From positions 1 to 64,000 of the forward strand of contig JAFIEG010000011.1 in assembly GCA_020832665.1 (NCBI GenBank): a stretch of 64,000 nucleotides of DNA. Reading direction: 5' to 3'. The position numbers and the translations under genes are program-made. Origin of the DNA: Pararhodobacter sp. GTDB taxonomy: Bacteria > Pseudomonadota > Alphaproteobacteria > Rhodobacterales > Rhodobacteraceae. Below, in pieces: positions 7,553 through 31,244 of this stretch (positions are counted from its first letter, which is position 1; every line of letters starts with the position of its first letter). The notes beneath the pieces were generated by a model, which did not search any database, was not told the DNA's origin, and saw nothing but the letters and a program-made list of their open reading frames with translations.

Positions 7553-7624
7553 GAGGAGCTGCCGTTCCTCTTCGCGCCCTGCGGGAGCGAATTCACCCCG
7601 CGAGTATTTTTTCGCAAGATGAAG
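7553..7624 (+). repeat. Dispersed repeat, copy 1 (hairpin plus GAATTCACCCCGCG box)
   Basis: A short hairpin (GAGGAGC, TGCC loop, GTTCCTC) is followed by CTTCGCGCC, GCGAATTCACCCCGCG, GTATTTTTT and GCAAGATGAAG. The same order of blocks is present in inverse orientation at 12929-13003, and a degenerate version lies inside xdhA at 27976-28028. The conserved sequence extends far beyond the hairpin, so this is a repeat family rather than a chance terminator. Confidence 0.7.
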
Positions 7625-10776: not shown

Positions 10777-11819
10777 GCCCAGCTTCCCTTCGACATCAGC
10801 CCCATGATTTCAAGCTGGCGCCAGTTGATGAACCGCTCCGACCAGTCTGTCCACAGGTTAAGCCCGCGTTCCAGCCCCTCGGCATAGGCCTGGTATTCGC
10901 GCCCGCCCGCGTAATGCTCGCGGCGCTGCAACTCCTCGCGCGCCTTCTCGCCCAGCGTGTCCAGGAATTTCGCATGCAGCAGGCAGCCCGATGCCTTTTC
11001 GCCGCCCAACGTGTCGTAAACCAGGTTGAGCCCGCGCGGCAGCAGCATATGGGTGGAACTGACATAGGCATGGCCGCGCTGCCACTTCACCAGCGGGATC
11101 TTGTTCAGCGCCGGCGCTGCGGCCGGGTTGTCGGAAAAAAAGGCGCGCGAGCGCGGGCCGCCCTGAACCCACAGGTTGCGGAAATGGCCACTGCGGCTGA
11201 TCGTGTAATTGGCGCTGTCAAACCAGGCGGCAATCTCGAACGGGTTCTGCCCCTCGACACAGGGCTGCGCCGCAACCGGGCCCTTTGGATACATGTCCAG
11301 CAACAGCGTGCCGAAGGAACGGATGCCGGAATCGTCCAGCCAGTCGGTCAGCGCCGGCAGGGGGCGGGTATCACAAAACGGATAGACGAGGAATTCATCG
11401 ACATCGACCACCAGCGCCCAGCGCCCATGCGCATGCCGGTTGAGCAGGTGATTCATCCAGTCAACGCCGAAATTCGACGCGCGGTAACTCGCCCGTGTAC
11501 CCCAGATCGAACAATCAGGCTGATCGAGCAGATATTCGCACGAGCCGTCATCCGAGCCATTGTCCACGAACAGGAAATGTTCCACCCCCAACTCGCGGTA
11601 ATATTTCAGAAAAAATGGCAGTCGCACCCGCTCGTTGCGCAAGGTGCAGGCCACCAGCAGGCTGCGCGGCGCCAGCGCGCCGGTGCGATCGGCCAGGCTG
11701 CGCAAATCGCGCCCGCCGGCACGCGCGCGGCGCAGCTTTCGCTGGCGTTCGCGCCGTAGCCGGATTGTCGATAACAGCCCCAAGACCCGGTCACTCCATG
11801 CAACGCAACGTAAAAGCAC
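10773..11819 (-). CDS. Glycosyltransferase family 2-like protein (paralogue A)
   Basis: A 348-residue glycosyltransferase of the GT2/GT92-like type. Visible features are CTLRNERVRLPFFLKYY, HFLFVDNGSDDGS for nucleotide-sugar binding, and the metal-binding acidic cluster VVDVDEFLVYP near residue 138. It is clearly homologous to the next gene upstream (shared DTRPLPALT, YPKGP, FDSANYTI, GGPRSR and GGEK blocks). Translation seems to begin at a GTG at 11819 with GGAAACA upstream; no early in-frame ATG gives a complete protein. Stop overlaps the GT14 start. Likely cytosolic, acting on a surface glycan precursor. Confidence 0.78.
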   Translation of the reverse strand: MLLRCVAWSDRVLGLLSTIRLRRERQRKLRRARAGGRDLRSLADRTGALAPRSLLVACTLRNERVRLPFFLKYYRELGVEHFLFVDNGSDDGSCEYLLDQPDCSIWGTRASYRASNFGVDWMNHLLNRHAHGRWALVVDVDEFLVYPFCDTRPLPALTDWLDDSGIRSFGTLLLDMYPKGPVAAQPCVEGQNPFEIAAWFDSANYTISRSGHFRNLWVQGGPRSRAFFSDNPAAAPALNKIPLVKWQRGHAYVSSTHMLLPRGLNLVYDTLGGEKASGCLLHAKFLDTLGEKAREELQRREHYAGGREYQAYAEGLERGLNLWTDWSERFINWRQLEIMGLMSKGSWA

Positions 11820-11878
11820 TGTTTCCGGTCTAACCCCTAACGATTCATGATTGAATCAAAATCTGCACCACCTGCGCC

Positions 11879-12904
11879 TCATGCCCATTCCCCGCGCGAC
11901 ATCAACCCCTCTTCCTCGAGTTGCTGCCAGCCGCGATAGCGCGTCGAGGCCGGACACCACAAATCCGGCGCCCGCGTCAGCGCCTCGTGATAGGCATCGA
12001 ACACCGCCGGCTCGCCGAAATGCTGGCGGCGGCGGCGCTCCTCGGCCGATTTCTCCACCACCACGGGCAGGAACTTGGTGTGCAGGATCGCACCGCACAG
12101 CTTTTCGCCGCCCTGATCGTCATAGATCTCGCGGTTCAGCCGGCGCGGCAGCAGCGAATGGGTCGAGTTGAGATAGACATGGCGCCAGTGCCAGCGCACC
12201 AGCGGCACCTTGGTCAGCGTCGGGCCGCGCCTTGGCTGATCGACATGAAACACGCGCGAGCGCGGGCCGCCCTGAATCCACAGCGCTCCGATATCGTGCT
12301 TGCGGGTGATGGTGTAATTGGCGCTGTCGAACCATTGCAACAGCTCGGTCGGGTCCTGCCCGGGGCGGTAGGGCTGCGCATCGAGCGGCCCCTTGGGGTA
12401 CAGCTCCACCATCAGCGCACCCATCGCCTCGATCCCGCGCGCCTGCAACCAGCCGGTCAGCGCCGGCAAGGGGCGCGTGTCGTGATGCGGATAGATCAGC
12501 AGCTCGTCGGCATCCACCGTCACGCACCAGCGCCCATGTCCGTGGCGGATGAGCAGCCATTGCAGCCAGTCCATGCCGAAACGCGAGGCGCGGTAGCTGC
12601 CGCGCGTGTGCCACAGCGACACATCGGGCTGCCGGGCCAGCCAATCGCGCCCGCCATCGTCGCTGTCATTATCGACCAACAGGAAATGCCCCACCCCCAG
12701 CCGGCGATAATGCTCCATGAAATGGGGCAGGCGCAGTGCCTCGTTGCGGATGGTGGCGAAAAGCAGCACATCGTCGGCGCCGATCCCGGCGCTGCGGTCA
12801 GCGACACAGCGCAACTCGCGGCGCCTGAGAAGCGCGCGCATGAGCCGGTTCTGGCGCTTGCGCCGCCAGCGCCAGGCTTCCCGCAACGCGCGCAACCGCT
12901 TCAT
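11879..12904 (-). CDS. Glycosyltransferase family 2-like protein (paralogue B)
   Basis: A 341-residue paralogue of the downstream gene with the same fold signals: FATIRNEALRLPHFMEHY, FLLVDNDSDDGG, TVDADELLIYP near residue 131, DTRPLPALTGW, FDSANYTI and GGPRSR. The basic N-terminus (MKRLRALREAWRW) is followed directly by the catalytic domain, with no signal peptide. The ATG at 12904 has GGGCAGGA just upstream. Tandem duplication followed by divergence is the simplest origin. It opens the minus-strand run that ends with the sulfotransferase. Confidence 0.78.
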   Translation of the reverse strand: MKRLRALREAWRWRRKRQNRLMRALLRRRELRCVADRSAGIGADDVLLFATIRNEALRLPHFMEHYRRLGVGHFLLVDNDSDDGGRDWLARQPDVSLWHTRGSYRASRFGMDWLQWLLIRHGHGRWCVTVDADELLIYPHHDTRPLPALTGWLQARGIEAMGALMVELYPKGPLDAQPYRPGQDPTELLQWFDSANYTITRKHDIGALWIQGGPRSRVFHVDQPRRGPTLTKVPLVRWHWRHVYLNSTHSLLPRRLNREIYDDQGGEKLCGAILHTKFLPVVVEKSAEERRRRQHFGEPAVFDAYHEALTRAPDLWCPASTRYRGWQQLEEEGLMSRGEWA

Positions 12905-12928: not shown

Positions 12929-13003
12929 CTTCATCTTGCCACAAATACGCGCGGGGGTGAATTCGCGCCTGCCAAGGCGTGAAGAGGGGGCGGCAGCCCC
13001 CTC
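12929..13003 (-). repeat. Dispersed repeat, copy 2
   Basis: On the minus strand this reads as a hairpin with TGCC loop, CTCTTCACGCC, GCGAATTCACCCCCGCGCG, GTATTTGTG, GCAAGATGAAG. It matches copy 1 at 7553-7624 block by block. It sits between galU and the first glycosyltransferase gene, so here the hairpin part can also end galU transcription. Confidence 0.75.
12984..13003 (-). terminator. Hairpin terminator after galU
   Basis: Perfect 8-bp stem (GAGGGGGC/GCCCCCTC) with a 4-base loop begins 22 bases after the galU stop on the minus strand and is followed by TTCACGCC. It forms the head of the dispersed repeat at 12929-13003. Confidence 0.6.
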
Positions 13004-15061: not shown

Positions 15062-15919
15062 ATGCAAGGTCTCGGGCAGGACGGCATGCCGGACACGGGG
15101 CGGGGCGTCGGCCCTCCGCCCTCAGCGCTGGCGCGCGCCTTCACCCTGGCCGAACTGATCTTTCACGCCGCTGTCCGCTCGATCCGCAAGACGCATGGCA
15201 ACGCCATCATCGGGCTGGGCATCAACATCGCGCAGACGCTGATCCTGGTGGTGGTTTTCTACGCCATGTTCCTGATCATCGGCTTCACCTCGCGCGGGAT
15301 CAGGGGCGACTTCCTGCTTTACGTGATGACCGGCATCTTCCTGTTCATGTGCCACGTCAAGGCAATGACGGCGGTTGTCGGCGCCGAGGGGCCGACCTCG
15401 GCGATGATGAAGCACGCACCAATGAACACCATGGTGGCGATCGGCGCAGCGGCGCTGGGTCAGCTTTATATTCAGCTACTTTCCATGTTCGTGGTGCTTT
15501 TTCTCTATCACGCCATCTGGGCGCCGCTTGAGGTGCACCACCCCTTCGGCGCGCTCATGATGCTCTTGCTGTCTTGGTTCAACGGCGTCGCCATCGGTAT
15601 TGTCTTTCTGGCCATCAAGCCCTGGGCGCCGGCGGCGATCACCCTGCTGACCCAGATCTATGCACGCGCCAACATGGTGGCCTCGGGCAAGATGTTCGTG
15701 GCCAATCTGCTGCCCGGCTACATGATCGTCTATTTCGACTGGAACCCGCTCTTTCACACCATCGACCAGGCGCGCGGTTTCGCCTTTCTGAATTACAACC
15801 CGCATTATACCTCGGTCACCTATCCGGTGATGATTACCGCCATCGCCCTGGTCATCGGGTTGATGGGCGAATTCTACACCCGCCGCCGCGCCTCGCTCAG
15901 TTGGGGCGCCAAACACTGA
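15062..15919 (+). CDS. ABC-2 type permease, KpsM-like polysaccharide export protein
   Basis: A 285-residue inner-membrane protein with about six hydrophobic helices after a 35-residue cytosolic N-terminus. The amphipathic interfacial segment, the sequence LLSWFNGVAIGIV and the late WNPLFHTIDQARG-FLNYNPHY region resemble KpsM/Wzm-type permeases of capsule or O-antigen exporters. The start at 15062 follows GCAGGAGAAG. No cognate ATPase is adjacent, so it must pair with one encoded elsewhere. It is divergent from cysQ and close to the glycosyltransferase block, which supports a glycan export role. Confidence 0.75.
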   Translation: MQGLGQDGMPDTGRGVGPPPSALARAFTLAELIFHAAVRSIRKTHGNAIIGLGINIAQTLILVVVFYAMFLIIGFTSRGIRGDFLLYVMTGIFLFMCHVKAMTAVVGAEGPTSAMMKHAPMNTMVAIGAAALGQLYIQLLSMFVVLFLYHAIWAPLEVHHPFGALMMLLLSWFNGVAIGIVFLAIKPWAPAAITLLTQIYARANMVASGKMFVANLLPGYMIVYFDWNPLFHTIDQARGFAFLNYNPHYTSVTYPVMITAIALVIGLMGEFYTRRRASLSWGAKH

Positions 15920-15939
15920 CGCCGCAACAGGAGCCCGCC

Positions 15940-16563
15940 ATGCGCCTGATCCGACCCGCCCTCGCCGCCTTGGCCGCGCTGGCCATGCTTGTCTCTGCCG
16001 CGACCGCAGCAGCAGACGAGTTTCCGGCGTTTTACCGTGTCACCGGCGTGGCGCATGACGATGTGCTCAACATCCGCACCGAGCCCGATGCCGGCACCGC
16101 CATCATCGGCTTTCTGCGCCCCGATGAACGCGGGGTCGAAATCACGGCGCTGTCGCCTGACGGACGCTGGGGGCAGGTGAATTACGGCGAGCGGGCGGGC
16201 TGGTCGCATATGCGCTATCTCGAACGCGAGATGGCGGGAAACTGGCGCGACGGGCAGACCGCGCTTTACTGCTTCGGCAACGAGCCGTTCTGGAACATGC
16301 CGATCTTCCTCCCCACGCATCGCGCCGAATTTCATGACATCGATGGCGGCGGTTTCGAGCTGGTCACCGATACCGGCGCGCTGCCGGCCACGCGCTTTCC
16401 GCCGGTGCTGGCCATTCCGTTTTCGGGCACACGCGAGGGGGCGGCGATCCTGCGCGGCGAGGCCTGCAATGACGGCATGAGCGACATGCAGTTCGGCATC
16501 TCGGCCTTCATTTACTGGCGCGGCGATACCGAGGCGCTTTCGGGCTGCTGCCGGCTGGAATAG
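15940..16563 (+). CDS. Secreted SH3-domain protein with COG3650-like C-terminus (copy 1)
   Basis: A 207-residue exported protein of unknown function. A Sec signal peptide covers about residues 1-25 (ALAALAMLVSAATAAADE). An SH3b domain follows (VLNIRTEPDAGTAIIGFL … WGQVNYGERAGWSHMRYL). The C-terminal ~100 residues carry a Cys-rich pattern, YCFGNEPFW … CNDGMSD … SGCCRLE, typical of the COG3650-type domain. Four Cys suggest disulfides in the periplasm. The gene begins 21 bases after the permease stop with AACAGGAG upstream. The adjacent gene is a close duplicate. Confidence 0.75.
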   Translation: MRLIRPALAALAALAMLVSAATAAADEFPAFYRVTGVAHDDVLNIRTEPDAGTAIIGFLRPDERGVEITALSPDGRWGQVNYGERAGWSHMRYLEREMAGNWRDGQTALYCFGNEPFWNMPIFLPTHRAEFHDIDGGGFELVTDTGALPATRFPPVLAIPFSGTREGAAILRGEACNDGMSDMQFGISAFIYWRGDTEALSGCCRLE

Positions 16564-16675
16564 GCGCCGGCCTCGCCCCTGCGCTGAAAATCGCGCCAAT
16601 GAGCAAGGTCCGCACGCGACCTTGCGCCTCGCTTCGCCGGAAGGAAAGACACAGACGCCGCGAAAGGAGCCCGCC

Positions 16676-17302
16676 ATGCGCCCGTTCCGCCCCGCCCTTG
16701 CCGTATTCACCGCGCTGGCCATGCTGGTAACGGCCGCCGCGGCTGACGAGTTTCCGGCGCTCTATCGAGTGACCGGCGTGGCGCAAAACGATGCACTCTA
16801 CATCCGCGCCGAGCCCGATGCCGGCTCAGCCATTATCGGCTTTCTGAGCCCCGACCAGAGCGGGGTCGAGATCACCGCGCTGTCGCCTGACGGGCGCTGG
16901 GGGCAGGTGAACTACTTCGAGCGGGCGGGCTGGTCGCATATGCGCTATCTCGAACGCGCGATGGCGGGTAGCTGGCGCGATGCGCAGACGAGCCTTTCCT
17001 GCTATGGCACCGAACCCTATTGGCGGCTCAGCCTTTTCCTGCCCACTGATCGCGCCGAGTTCGGCAGCCTTAGCAGGCTCGACGACGAGGTTTACGAACT
17101 GGTCACCGATTCCGGCGCCCTGCCGGCCACGCGATTTCCACCGGTGCTGGCCATCCCGTTTTCGGGCACGCGCGAGGGCGCGGCCATCCTGCGCGGCGAG
17201 GATTGCAATGACGGCATGAGCGACCAGGAATTCGCCATCTCGGCCTTCCTCTACTTTCGCGGCGATTCCGAAGCGTTTTCGGGCTGCTGCCGGCTGGAAT
17301 AG
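16676..17302 (+). CDS. Secreted SH3-domain protein with COG3650-like C-terminus (copy 2)
   Basis: A 208-residue tandem paralogue of the previous gene: same signal peptide layout, same SH3b domain (ALYIRAEPDAGSAIIGFL) and same C-terminal Cys pattern (SCYGTEPYW, CNDGMSD, SGCCRLE). Even the DNA before the start is duplicated (GACGCCGCRAMAGGAGCCCGCC before both ATGs), so the duplication unit includes the ribosome site. The middle of the C-terminal domain differs most (LSLFLPTDRAEFGSLSRLDD), suggesting ligand divergence. Function unknown; probably periplasmic. Confidence 0.75.
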   Translation: MRPFRPALAVFTALAMLVTAAAADEFPALYRVTGVAQNDALYIRAEPDAGSAIIGFLSPDQSGVEITALSPDGRWGQVNYFERAGWSHMRYLERAMAGSWRDAQTSLSCYGTEPYWRLSLFLPTDRAEFGSLSRLDDEVYELVTDSGALPATRFPPVLAIPFSGTREGAAILRGEDCNDGMSDQEFAISAFLYFRGDSEAFSGCCRLE

Positions 17303-17361
17303 GGGGGCGCTACTCGCTGCCGCCGCCACCCGCTTCCCACCTCGACGGGGGAAGGGGCGTG

Positions 17362-27462: not shown

Positions 27463-28881
27463 ATGAGCGAAATCGCGTTTCTGCTCAACGGAACGCCCAT
27501 GCGTCTGGCCGATCAGCCCGCCACGCGCAGCCTGCTCGACTGGCTGCGCGAGGAACGCCGCCTTGCCGGCGCCAAGGAAGGGTGCAACGAGGGCGATTGC
27601 GGCGCCTGTACCGTAATGGTCAGCGACAGCCGCGGCACCCATGCGCTCAATGCATGCATCCTGTTCCTGCCACAGCTTCACGGCAAGGCGGTGCGCACAG
27701 TCGAGGGGCTTGGCGACCCCGATGGCACGCTCCACCCCGTCCAGCAGGCGATGATCGATCAGCACGCCAGCCAGTGCGGCTTCTGCACACCCGGCTTCGT
27801 CGCCGCGATGGCGGTCAACCACCTCAATGGCGAAAGCGACCACGACACCGCGCTGGCGGGCAATCTGTGCCGCTGCACTGGCTATGCCCCCATCATCCGC
27901 GCCGCCGAGGCCGCCGCCTGCCACCCCGTCCCGCAATGGCTCCGCCAGGCCACCGACCCGGCCATTTTCTGTCCGAAAATATCCCGGGGGGAGTCGCGCG
28001 CCAGCGTGACGGGGGGCAGCGCCCCCCCGCCTTTCATCCCGAAATCATCAGACGATCTGGCGCAGTGGTTCGCCGAAAACCCGCAGGCCACGCTCATCGC
28101 CGGCGCCACCGATGTCGGGCTCTGGGTCACGAAACAACTGCGCGAACCCGCGCCTTTGGCCTTCATCGCCGGGCTCGACGATCTGCGCGGCGTCACCCTC
28201 ACCGACAGCGAAATCCGCATCGGCGCCACGACCACCCTCGCCGATCTGCACAAGGCCATCGCGCCGCACCACCCTTCCTTCGCCGAACTCATCCGCCGCT
28301 TCGGCTCGGCGCAGGTGCGCGCCGCCGCCACTATCGGTGGCAACATCGCCAATGGCTCACCCATCGGCGACACCCCGCCGGCGCTGATCGCGCTGGGTGC
28401 CATGCTGCATCTGCGCCGGGGCGATGCGCGCCGCGCCATCGCGCTTGAGGATTTCTTCATCGAATACGGAAAGCAGGACCGCGCGCCGGGTGAATTCGTC
28501 GAGGCGGTCAGCTTTCCGCGCCAGCAAGACCGGCTGCGCTGCTACAAGATATCCAAACGCTTCGATCAGGACATCTCGGCGCTTTGCGGCTGTTTCAACA
28601 TCTCTGTCGAGAATGGCACCGTTTCCGACGCCCGCATCGCCTTTGGCGGCATGGCCGGCACTCCCAAACGCGCGCTGGCAGTCGAGCTGGAACTCATCGG
28701 CAACTCCTGGACGATCGAGACCGCCGAGGCCGCGCTGCCCGCCTTTGACGAAGATTTCCAGCCCATCGACGACATGCGCGCCTCAGCAAGCTACCGGCTG
28801 GAAACCGCGCGCAACCTTCTGCTGCGGTATTTCCATGAAGATCAGGGCACGCCGGTCAATGTGCTGGAGGTGGCGCCATGA
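27463..28881 (+). CDS. xdhA: Xanthine dehydrogenase small subunit (2Fe-2S and FAD domains)
   Basis: A 472-residue subunit that passes electrons from the molybdenum site to NAD+ via two 2Fe-2S clusters and FAD. Ferredoxin-like cluster ligands are in GCNEGDCGACTV, the second cluster in QCGFCTPGF and LCRCTGY, and the FAD domain has TLIAGATDVGLWVTK and TIGGNIANGSPIGD. Residues about 172-189 (CPKISRGESRASVTGG) are encoded by a palindromic repeat at 27976-28028 inserted in frame in the linker between the iron-sulfur and FAD domains. The stop overlaps the xdhB start (ATGA). First gene of a purine operon. Confidence 0.95.
   Translation: MSEIAFLLNGTPMRLADQPATRSLLDWLREERRLAGAKEGCNEGDCGACTVMVSDSRGTHALNACILFLPQLHGKAVRTVEGLGDPDGTLHPVQQAMIDQHASQCGFCTPGFVAAMAVNHLNGESDHDTALAGNLCRCTGYAPIIRAAEAAACHPVPQWLRQATDPAIFCPKISRGESRASVTGGSAPPPFIPKSSDDLAQWFAENPQATLIAGATDVGLWVTKQLREPAPLAFIAGLDDLRGVTLTDSEIRIGATTTLADLHKAIAPHHPSFAELIRRFGSAQVRAAATIGGNIANGSPIGDTPPALIALGAMLHLRRGDARRAIALEDFFIEYGKQDRAPGEFVEAVSFPRQQDRLRCYKISKRFDQDISALCGCFNISVENGTVSDARIAFGGMAGTPKRALAVELELIGNSWTIETAEAALPAFDEDFQPIDDMRASASYRLETARNLLLRYFHEDQGTPVNVLEVAP
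27976..28028 (-). repeat. Dispersed repeat, copy 3, in frame inside xdhA
   Basis: The plus strand reads GAAAATATCCCGGGGGGAG, TCGCGCGCCAGCGTGA, then a GGGGGG-CAGCG-CCCCCC hairpin. This follows the block order of the inverted intergenic copy at 12929-13003 (AAATAC, CGCGGGGGTGAATTCGCGC, CCAAGGCGTGA, G-rich/C-rich hairpin). It contains no in-frame stop and encodes the linker between the 2Fe-2S and FAD domains. Confidence 0.6.
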
Positions 28882-31244
28882 GCGTGCACAAGCCCCTGCC
28901 CCATGATTCCGCGCGCCTGCATGTCACCGGCCAGGCGCGTTATGTCGATGACATTCCCGTGCCCGCCGGCACCCTGCATCTGGCCTTCGGCCTTGCCACC
29001 GTCTCACATGGCCGCATCACCGCGATGGACCTTGCCGCCGTGCGCGCCGCGCCGGGCGTGGTGGCGGTGCTGAGTGCCGAGGATGTGGGCGATGCCGATT
29101 GCTCGCCCTCGGCACATGACGAGCCGCTCCTGGCGCAAGGCGTGGTGCATTATGCCGGCCAGCCGGTGTTTCTGGTGGTGGCCGAAAGCCATCTGGCTGC
29201 GCGCAAGGCGGCGCGGCTGGGGCAGGTCAGCTATCAGGAATTGCCCGCCATATTGAGCGTCGAGGATGCGCTTGCCGCCGACAGCCGCTTCGAGGACGGC
29301 CCGCGCATCTGGGCCCGCGGCGAGCCCGACGCCGCCATCGCCGCCGCGCCGCATGTGATCGAGGGGCGCATCGAGATGGGCGCGCAGGAGCATTTCTATC
29401 TCGAAGGCCATGCCGCGCTGGCCCTGCCGCAGGAAGATGGCGACATGGTGATCTGCTGTTCCTCGCAGCACCCCAGCGAGATCCAGCACAAGGTGGCCGA
29501 GGCGCTGGGCATTGCCCAGCACGGCGTGCGCGTCGAGGTGCGGCGCATGGGCGGCGGCTTTGGCGGCAAGGAAAGTCAGGGCAACCATCTGGCCGTGGCT
29601 TGCGCGCTGGCCGCGCGCGCCACCGGCCGGCCCTGCAAGCTGCGCTATGACCGCGACGATGATTTCCTCATCACCGGCAAGCGCCACGCCTTTCGTATCG
29701 ATTACCGCGCCGGGGCCGATGAGGCCGGGCGCGTGCTGGGTATCGAGTTCGACCAGTATGCGCTTTGCGGCTGGTCGCAGGATCTGTCGCTGCCGGTGGC
29801 CGACCGCGCCATGCTGCATGCCGACAACGCCTATTTCCTGCCTGCCGCGCGCATCGTCAGCCACCGGCTGAAAACCAACACCCAGTCGGCCACCGCCTTT
29901 CGTGGCTTTGGCGGGCCGCAGGGCATGCTGGGCATCGAGCGGGTGATGGATCATGTGGCACACAAGCTGAAGCTGGACCCGCTCGCCGTGCGCCGCGCCA
30001 ATTACTACCGCCCCGCCGAAGCCGCGAAAACCGGCCCCGGCACCGCGCGGCGAGTCACCGGTCCACACAGCCCGCAACCGCCGGCAACGCAAGCGCTGCA
30101 GACCACCCCTTTCGGCCAGATCGTCGAGGATTTCATCTTGCATGAACTCACCGACAAGCTGGCCACACAGGCCGATTACGCCGCCCGCCGCGTCGCTATC
30201 ACCCAGTGGAACCGCGCCAGCCCCGTGCTGAAGAAGGGCATCGCGCTGACGCCGGTGAAATTCGGCATCTCCTTCACGCTGACGCATCTCAACCAGGCCG
30301 GGGCGCTGGTGCATGTCTATCTTGATGGCTCGATCCATCTCAACCATGGCGGCACCGAGATGGGGCAGGGGCTGTTCCAGAAGGTGGCGCAGGTGGCGGC
30401 GGGGGTGTTCGGCGTGGGGCTGGACGCGGTGAAGATCACCGCCACCGATACGGGCAAGGTGCCCAATACCTCGGCCACGGCGGCCAGTTCGGGCTCTGAT
30501 CTCAACGGCATGGCGGTAAAAGCGGCGTGCGAGACGATCCGCGCGCGCATCGCCGGGGTGATCGCCGCGCGGCACCAATGCGCCCCGGATGATATCCGTT
30601 TCACCGATGGGCAGGTGCGCGCGCCGGGGCAGGATTACAGCTTCGCCGAGGCCGCGACGTTGACATGGCAGGCGCGCGAGAGCCTTTCCGCCACCGGTTT
30701 TTACCGCACGCCCAAGCTGGAATGGGACCGCATCAGGGGCCATGGCCGGCCGTTCTTCTATTTCGCCTATGGCGCGGCGGTCAGCGAGGTGGTGATCGAC
30801 ACGCTGTCGGGCGAGCATCGCATCCTGCGCACCGATATCCTGCATGATGCCGGCGCCAGCCTGAACCCGGCGCTGGATATCGGCCAGATCGAGGGCGGCT
30901 ATGTGCAGGGCGCGGGCTGGCTGACCAGCGAAGAGATCGTCTGGGACGGGCAGGGGCGGCTGCGCACGCATGCGCCCTCGACCTACAAGATCCCGGCCAC
31001 GGGCGACCGGCCAAGGCTGTTCAACGTTGCGCTTTGGGAAGGCGAGAACCGCGAAGAGACCATACACCGCTCGAAGGCCGTGGGCGAGCCGCCCTTGATG
31101 CTGGGTATCTCGGTGCTGATGGCGCTGTCCGAAGCGGTGGCGGCTTGCGGCGATGGCTCGGTCTATCCTGCCCTCGATGCGCCGGCGACGCCCGAGCGGG
31201 TGTTGATGGCAGTCAGGCGTCAGCGCGGGGGCGGCGATGCTTGA
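28878..31244 (+). CDS. xdhB: Xanthine dehydrogenase large (molybdopterin-binding) subunit
   Basis: A 788-residue catalytic subunit that oxidises hypoxanthine and xanthine toward urate at a molybdenum cofactor. Landmarks: GQARYVDDIP at the N-terminus, QEHFYLEGHAAL, GGGFGGKESQ in the Moco-binding core, TAFRGFGGPQGM with the substrate-site Arg, and the C-terminal SKAVGEPPLML with the catalytic Glu. Length matches bacterial XdhB. The start overlaps the xdhA stop and the stop overlaps the xdhC start by 8 bases. Confidence 0.96.
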   Translation: MSVHKPLPHDSARLHVTGQARYVDDIPVPAGTLHLAFGLATVSHGRITAMDLAAVRAAPGVVAVLSAEDVGDADCSPSAHDEPLLAQGVVHYAGQPVFLVVAESHLAARKAARLGQVSYQELPAILSVEDALAADSRFEDGPRIWARGEPDAAIAAAPHVIEGRIEMGAQEHFYLEGHAALALPQEDGDMVICCSSQHPSEIQHKVAEALGIAQHGVRVEVRRMGGGFGGKESQGNHLAVACALAARATGRPCKLRYDRDDDFLITGKRHAFRIDYRAGADEAGRVLGIEFDQYALCGWSQDLSLPVADRAMLHADNAYFLPAARIVSHRLKTNTQSATAFRGFGGPQGMLGIERVMDHVAHKLKLDPLAVRRANYYRPAEAAKTGPGTARRVTGPHSPQPPATQALQTTPFGQIVEDFILHELTDKLATQADYAARRVAITQWNRASPVLKKGIALTPVKFGISFTLTHLNQAGALVHVYLDGSIHLNHGGTEMGQGLFQKVAQVAAGVFGVGLDAVKITATDTGKVPNTSATAASSGSDLNGMAVKAACETIRARIAGVIAARHQCAPDDIRFTDGQVRAPGQDYSFAEAATLTWQARESLSATGFYRTPKLEWDRIRGHGRPFFYFAYGAAVSEVVIDTLSGEHRILRTDILHDAGASLNPALDIGQIEGGYVQGAGWLTSEEIVWDGQGRLRTHAPSTYKIPATGDRPRLFNVALWEGENREETIHRSKAVGEPPLMLGISVLMALSEAVAACGDGSVYPALDAPATPERVLMAVRRQRGGGDA

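Follow-up and report, generated by a model that had tools for sequence, protein, structure and literature searches.

The xdhA gene in this stretch of Pararhodobacter DNA raises the question of whether a palindromic repeat that otherwise lies between genes has become part of a conserved enzyme, and whether this is a single accident or a recurrent state. We address it for a stretch of 64,000 nucleotides (the window), for the genome from which the window comes (the source genome) and for the relatives of that genome.

A dispersed palindromic element is translated within xdhA

The original prediction, made from sequence alone, had placed a dispersed repeat at 27976-28028 inside xdhA, an inverted copy at 12929-13003 and a further copy at 7553-7624 (see Table 1 for the features as now delimited). 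The xdhA copy held and is longer than predicted (27961-28028). The second site also holds a copy (12929-13001), but in the same orientation as that of xdhA, and the third was borne out in part, on the minus strand and with only the 5′ part, 7624-7585, matching. The claims of an open frame and intact flanking domains held: the reading frame of XdhA is open through the element, and none of the four Pfam domains is missing (Fer2 8-56, Fer2_2 79-148, FAD_binding_5 191-353 and CO_deh_flav_C 359-459).

Table 1 Features of the window bearing on the element
Feature	Position	Strand	Evidence and remarks
xdhA host gene	27463..28881	+	472 aa; Pfam domains and orthologues among relatives
In-frame element copy	27961..28028	+	About residues 167-189, between Fe-S and FAD domains
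5′ arm of xdhA copy, ATTTTCTGTCCGAAAATATCCC	27964..27985	+	Minor subfamily signature of the source genome; common to L192 and L158 copies
Variable hairpin of xdhA copy	27993..28010	+	7-bp stem with one G-T pair, 4-nt loop; between two G6 blocks; fold and L192 alignment
Constant 3′ hairpin of xdhA copy	28011..28027	+	GGGGGGC AGC GCCCCCC; fold and alignment
Intergenic element copy	12929..13001	+	33.6 bits with intergenic-only model; R1 E 1.4e-7; orientation as xdhA copy
Intergenic partial or divergent copy, 5′ part	7585..7624	-	18.9 bits, E 8.8e-5, intergenic-only model
xdhB	28878..31244	+	Pfam; second host site in other genera

We searched with an nhmmer model built from 85 intergenic copies of the source genome, the xdhA copy being excluded (the intergenic-only model). 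It located the xdhA element at 27964-28026 with 37.0 bits (E 1.9e-10), whereas the top score among 50 dinucleotide shuffles of the window was 13.3 bits. One caveat is that the 85 training copies had themselves been located using a model that included copies from xanthine dehydrogenase (XDH) genes. A covariance model, R1, placed the element at 27962-28028 (E 2.6e-12); the 42 copies from which R1 was built include the xdhA copy and the 12928 copy of the window. The nearest relative of the xdhA copy is an intergenic copy outside the window (G000:C125:17228-17295, L192); three substitutions and one indel separate the two. A stem pair that is A-T in L192 is G-C in xdhA, so that two of the three substitutions preserve pairing. 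A match to 6S RNA (RF00013, 47.2 bits) lies near this relative, at L192:420-578 (-).

Chance similarity of a GC-rich linker to intergenic DNA is one alternative, and the high GC content and the runs of G and C speak for it. Against it stand a score far above those of the shuffles, a shared 5′ arm that contains A and T, a near-identical intergenic copy and a genome search that returned a real family of at least 150 copies; this alternative is all but ruled out. We conclude that a dispersed palindromic element of Rhodobacteraceae has a genuine copy in xdhA.

An AlphaFold2 model of XdhA, based on 49 XdhA sequences, had a mean pLDDT of 84.3. Values fell below 50 at residues 173-183, within the element-encoded stretch, and elsewhere only at 298-300 and 469-472. 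The element-encoded peptide is thus predicted by the model to be a disordered, flexible spacer; that its presence is neutral for the enzyme is an inference.

Architecture and spread of the element family

The element is about 62 nt long and consists of a 5′ arm, a G6 block, a variable hairpin and a G6-loop-C6 hairpin. The source genome holds at least 150 copies. All 150 candidates scored, to which number scoring was limited, match R1 with E below 1e-3, and the xdhA copy ranks 21st in that list. For closer study we used 95 copies, which lie in 90 stretches around the best-scoring of the at least 150. The inner segment could be parsed in 72 of 94 intergenic copies and is distinct in 61 of these; the mean stem was 6.03 bp, compared with 3.30 bp after shuffling. 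The architecture is one of a constant frame around a variable hairpin. Among 88 intergenic copies, the three sense frames are free of stops in 74, 81 and 76 cases and the antisense frames in 62, 61 and 43; since most frames are free of stops in most copies, an in-frame landing would readily be translated.

All 14 named genomes searched with R1 contained matches at E up to 0.01. In 13 of them we counted from 28 to at least 150 copies, and the fourteenth, Rhodophyticola, had four weak ones. A class-wide draw of 142 genomes, searched at 1e-6 with stricter filters, returned only the source genome; the sole other genome of the same family in that draw gave no match. Rfam yielded no family for the element, whether the window was searched at gathering thresholds or the loci L192, L131, L037 and L080 at E up to 1. 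As a separate observation, GANTC occurs in 57 of the 95 source-genome copies (L111-L200), compared with 7% of random 62-mers, and may point to a link with methylation. Copies from four other genomes lack it (0/11, 0/9, 0/9 and 0/3), and those of another have it in 5/6.

Intergenic copies lie just behind stop codons

The original prediction is to be corrected in that the element is mainly an intergenic repeat of gene 3′ ends. Both neighbours had been called for 77 of the 95 copies, which lie between convergent genes in 35 cases, tandem genes in 38 and divergent genes in 4, as stem-loop repeats of mostly 3′-end extragenic position. A further 16 have an uncalled neighbour, one lies in a weak antisense call, and one, the xdhA copy, is inside a sense gene and is the only clear in-frame copy among the 95. 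For comparison, gaps of at least 20 bp in the window number 25 tandem, 8 divergent and 7 convergent. Convergent sites are therefore probably over-represented and divergent sites under-represented (Fisher p 0.004 and 0.02, respectively), with crude gene calls on both sides. The codon-bias gene caller missed xdhA and called antisense frames when run over the whole window, so that counts of intergenic types are approximate. The median distance to the gene end that bears the stop codon was 27 and 24 nt at convergent sites, 14 nt for tandem sense copies and 23.5 nt for tandem antisense copies. Because the copies sit just behind stop codons, we regard the element as a 3′-end repeat; a role of the intergenic copies at mRNA ends is inferred.

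On the element's own strand the copies do not look like canonical intrinsic terminators, since none of the 95 has TTTT in the 15 nt that follow the 3′ hairpin. On the opposite strand, TTTT occurs in the 5′ arm of 28 of the 95, and a role on that strand thus remains possible.

The XdhA linker is filled, empty or apparently decayed across genera

We compared the XdhA linker among relatives, adding 80 named loci and dropping L031 and L045 (repeats of L005 and L015). The element was present in 29 of 107 orthologue rows, window included, absent in 74 and unclear in 4. Without the copy of the window it is carried by 28 of 106 loci, of which the intergenic-only model missed 5, finding 23 of 106. The model behind most counts in XdhA, XdhB, BchB and other genomes drew part of its training set from XDH copies at those loci; when the main counts were repeated with the intergenic-only model, all of them fell. 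Linkers with the element had a median length of 68.5 aa (n = 28, range 63-107; the twenty-ninth, L068, had no anchor), compared with 56 aa for those without it (n = 74, range 46-81). In homologues that lack the element the linker differs and is generally shorter, which favours the prediction that a mobile palindrome was acquired as a new protein segment. That claim is supported, although transposition itself is not shown. It was not, however, one acquisition in one species: the state recurs in many genera and in at least three proteins.

Genera with the element in the XdhA linker include Gemmobacter, Ruegeria, Roseovarius, Actibacterium, Roseobacter, Kandeliimicrobium and Tranquillimonas. Within the genus of the window, L002-L004 hold well-formed copies, L011 has the 5′ arm only, and L005 and L006 have what look by eye like decayed copies, which fall below the model threshold and were scored absent. 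At the same site the xdhA linker of L017 has a different, longer insert with a palindrome of its own, GGGGCGCAGCCCC, as judged by eye.

On a quick LG+G4 tree the presence state needs 17 parsimony changes, of which starred branches force 8, and gains cannot be distinguished from losses. Presence is clustered on the tree (18 changes in this comparison, against a mean of 25.6 after shuffling). All copies in XdhA have a single orientation and nearly all one frame: 27 of 31 agree by script and 30 of 31 after re-reading by hand of three cases with A runs, with L078 differing.

These data bear on a rival history, in which one insertion into the XdhA linker of an early ancestor of Rhodobacteraceae was inherited vertically, held close to the family sequence by gene conversion and lost many times, without recurrent insertion. 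It is favoured by the shared site, orientation and near-uniform frame across genera, by the remnants in L005, L006 and L011, and by the clustering on the tree. It demands very many losses, however, and does not sit well with the differing frame of L078 or with Ruegeria, in which most linkers are short and alike, yet L040 among them has the element. L068 does too, but its row is only 38% filled, having been largely cut by the anchor search, so that its place on the tree is unsure. We lean slightly against this history. Because one frame and one orientation dominate, an old insertion refreshed by conversion remains a strong rival.

The element lies between domains in further proteins

XdhB provides a second host site. 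We detected no element in the window's own xdhB linker between MoCoBD_1 and MoCoBD_2 (about residues 377-427, 30006-30158). In 28 of 102 loci, with domain limits taken from the window, the corresponding interdomain loop contains the element in antisense. The copy is open and in frame in 27 of the 28, the frame being broken in L069, from a metagenome assembly. E was below 1e-3 for 22 and between 1e-3 and 1e-2 for the other six; the intergenic-only model gave 16 matches, 15 of them among the 28, and missed 13. Reading by eye, we also saw a recurrent peptide, GTGxAxRFGGAHSPxP, beside or replacing the element in the xdhB loops of L026, L036, L043, L071, L082, L086 and others; it could be the ancestral loop or another repeat.

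In BchB, 7 of 31 sequences, including the plasmid gene that prompted the search, have an antisense element in the linker that precedes the C-terminal domain; the intergenic-only model finds 6 of 31. Three of 124 copies (119 loci) from other genomes, a score-ranked sample of the named-genome search from which known XDH copies had been removed, also lie in bchB (L217, L222 and L379). These three are flanked by PF00148 and PF08369. A photolyase-like gene on a Cereibacter plasmid (H48) has the element between PF00875 and PF03441. A search of 41 genomes, run without a positive control, found no relatives of this host. In all four proteins, XdhA, XdhB, BchB and the photolyase-like protein, the element falls between domains.

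Among 60 of 69 plasmid records, each taken at its best place only, 55 have no annotated gene beneath the match, in a gene table that is incomplete. The matches of H48 and H59 are internal to a gene, and those of H14 and H24 merely graze a gene end; H25 has the same position and record length as H24. Several candidates for in-gene copies were rejected: L155, L198 and L337 because their spanning frames had no Pfam match, L229 and L258 because the frames had apparently been extended upstream of the gene start, leaving the element before the gene, and further spanning frames in other genomes because they were judged spurious, by eye only. In L336:171-1451 (-), a single open frame links a PF09994-domain gene to a PEMT-family gene by way of the element; this might be a gene fusion made by the repeat, or chance.

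The reverse relationship, in which the family spread from the gene and the intergenic copies are scattered xdhA fragments, has nothing but the similarity itself in its favour. The likeness ends at the element, with no xdhA flanks seen by eye in the 95 copies; the element is also found in XdhB, BchB and many intergenic places; and most XdhA rows lack it. We regard this origin as excluded for practical purposes.

The crystallised Rhodobacter capsulatus enzyme probably carries a relic

The solved XdhA structures 2w3r and 1jro, which we take to be those of Rhodobacter capsulatus, have AFTLAQLSSGVRGQTAP at the position of the element. At the same place the XdhA of L265, 80% identical to 2w3r/1jro XdhA over the 270-aa query, has SFTLPEVPSGVRGQTAP, and the DNA behind it is a recognisable element copy (E 4.4e-8 in a set of 29 linkers). 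A further 29 linkers come from the genomes closest to R. capsulatus XdhA; 13 of them have the element, and this set may overlap with the first. The crystallised R. capsulatus XdhA is therefore likely to carry an element relic, an inference from the protein and from L265 made without sight of R. capsulatus DNA.

XdhA and XdhB copies of one genome resemble each other

We detected a same-genome signature in the 11 genomes with copies in both XdhA and XdhB: arm identity was 0.854 within and 0.672 between genomes, a difference matched in 0 of 20,000 permutations. Third-codon-position identity among L001-L004 was 0.827 in the element and 0.654 elsewhere, with 1 of 407 windows as high, whereas amino-acid identity was 0.677 in the element and 0.801 elsewhere. 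Arm sharing within genomes and the third-position excess, both of which are shown, indicate a signal at the DNA level, which could stem from recurrent insertion, gene conversion or selection on the hairpins. That conversion is the mechanism is inferred. The signature between XdhA and intergenic copies is not universal. When XdhA 5′ arms were compared with intergenic copies in 10 genomes, the own genome was on average the closest in 5, ranked second in 1 and third in 2, and came seventh and eighth in the remaining 2. The genome of the window ranks only eighth, its xdhA copy being a member of a minor 5′-arm subfamily. Two copies treated as intergenic in this comparison (L222 and L217) are in fact in bchB. 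L245 is the xdhA copy of L046 and was left out.

Selection on the hairpin pair, for an mRNA or DNA function in the xdh and bch operons such as stability, attenuation or translational pausing between domains, might also account for the third-position excess. In its favour, the window's xdhA copy folds into two hairpins (-28 kcal/mol, z -2.08), stems are preserved in XdhA copies (mean 4.62 bp, compared with 2.72 bp after shuffling; 24 of 28 copies parsable), and the same genes are hit repeatedly. Against it, 74 of the 107 XdhA rows have no element, copies in XdhB and BchB run the other way, conversion would produce the third-position excess just as well, and z was below -2 in only 3 of 6 folded copies. 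We consider such a function unlikely.

Mobility of the element is inferred; transposition is not shown and no mover was identified. We saw no target-site duplication in 82 copies (mean common word 4.17, compared with 4.08 after shuffling; 62 of 300 shuffles as high). The ends are the 5′ arm and the C run, and no terminal inverted repeats were evident by eye. Mobilisation by a RAYT was considered and rejected for the source genome, which has no detectable Y1 transposase (PF01797). Matches to PF01797 were found in 5 of 25 genomes searched, including the same-genus G005 and G011, and in 5 of 14 controls; G011 has both the element and Y1 matches.

A 3′-end repeat as a putative source of linkers

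The reading we favour, and hold to be likely, is that a palindromic 3′-end repeat enters linkers, is exchanged with intergenic copies and decays elsewhere. The element is normally located just downstream of stop codons and would enter genes where the protein tolerates it, that is, in the interdomain linkers of XdhA (sense) and of XdhB and BchB (antisense). In-frame landings would easily be translated, given the openness of most frames in most copies, and the peptide would act as a disordered spacer. Genic copies may then exchange sequence with, or be replaced by, intergenic copies of the same genome, through insertion or gene conversion, and in other lineages they may decay or be deleted. In a bolder version, a family-wide standing pool of 3′-end palindromes supplies interdomain linkers: the element repeatedly enters XdhA, XdhB and BchB, in either orientation, and is renewed there. 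The R. capsulatus XDH of the crystal structures would already have one, and genic and intergenic copies would evolve in concert via an unknown mover or conversion, without need of a Y1 transposase. This extension is tentative, and on present evidence we would sooner doubt than endorse it.

Rickettsia palindromic elements (RPEs), the best-known case of such behaviour, are short palindromic repeats that occur both in intergenic DNA and, in frame, within protein genes unrelated to one another (PMC10969869). The original prediction likened the xdhA segment to them, and this holds in the sense that the element works like an RPE, an analogy drawn without sequence comparison: it too is a dispersed palindromic repeat inserted in frame in protein genes. 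RPEs are about 150 bp long, encode a conserved peptide and lie within genes in nearly half of cases (PMC10969869). The present element, in contrast, measures about 62 nt, its genic share is 1 clear copy in 95 in the source genome and 3 in 124 elsewhere (crude gene calls), and its genic copies bear genome signatures. In-frame fusions by in-gene MITEs are not unusual, RPEs being unusually frequent (PMC10969869), so the kind of event seen here is known. MITEs share with our element such in-frame fusion within genes; they differ in that here there was no target-site duplication seen, no terminal inverted repeat by eye and no partner transposase identified.

Among intergenic repeats, Br-REPs are 3′-UTR elements with hundreds of copies, stem-loops and a convergent-gene location (PMC5082802). 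REP, BIME and Br-REP sequences resemble the element in their many stem-loop copies at 3′-UTR or convergent positions. Br-REP is described as a 3′-UTR element, whereas here conserved enzymes carry the element in frame, and the RAYT-type Y1 transposase of REP systems was not found in the source genome. CIR, reported as strictly intergenic, is likewise an alphaproteobacterial intergenic repeat, and the frequent GANTC in source-genome copies adds to the likeness. It differs from the element through the in-gene copies described here and the absence of GANTC from the copies of four other genomes; the sequences were not compared.

The original prediction held such elements to be undescribed for Rhodobacteraceae. 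We found no description in the open-licence literature searched, including PMC2694212 and PMC8632094, with most subscription journals outside the search; nor did we find there an account of this host group, of the recurrence at the same linkers or of the concerted copies. Having described the Rickettsia elements, a 2024 review called a similar mechanism of protein evolution in other prokaryotes 'conceivable' (PMC10969869). Many named genera now show such insertions, which lie in the same linkers between the domains of conserved enzymes, and filled sites occur alongside empty and seemingly decayed ones. Because these states coexist and the crystallised enzyme probably has a relic, the cost or benefit of insertion and copying without a known transposase are directly testable.

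Further observations

In G000, contigs C93, C90, C38, C118, C123, C26, C75 and C33 have element copies no more than about 200 nt from their start, and the xdhA of G001 is split across two contigs at the linker; the element may thus break assemblies. In the window, 15662-15814 (-) matches the Rfam family RF02645, Cis2_sRNA (Ruegeria cis2 sRNA), with 72.7 bits. A tandem duplicated stretch follows at 15838-17303, with direct repeats at a spacing of about 730 nt that are 71-87% identical, and a second duplication, with a spacing of 1109 nt and 78-80% identity, lies at 11024-12334.
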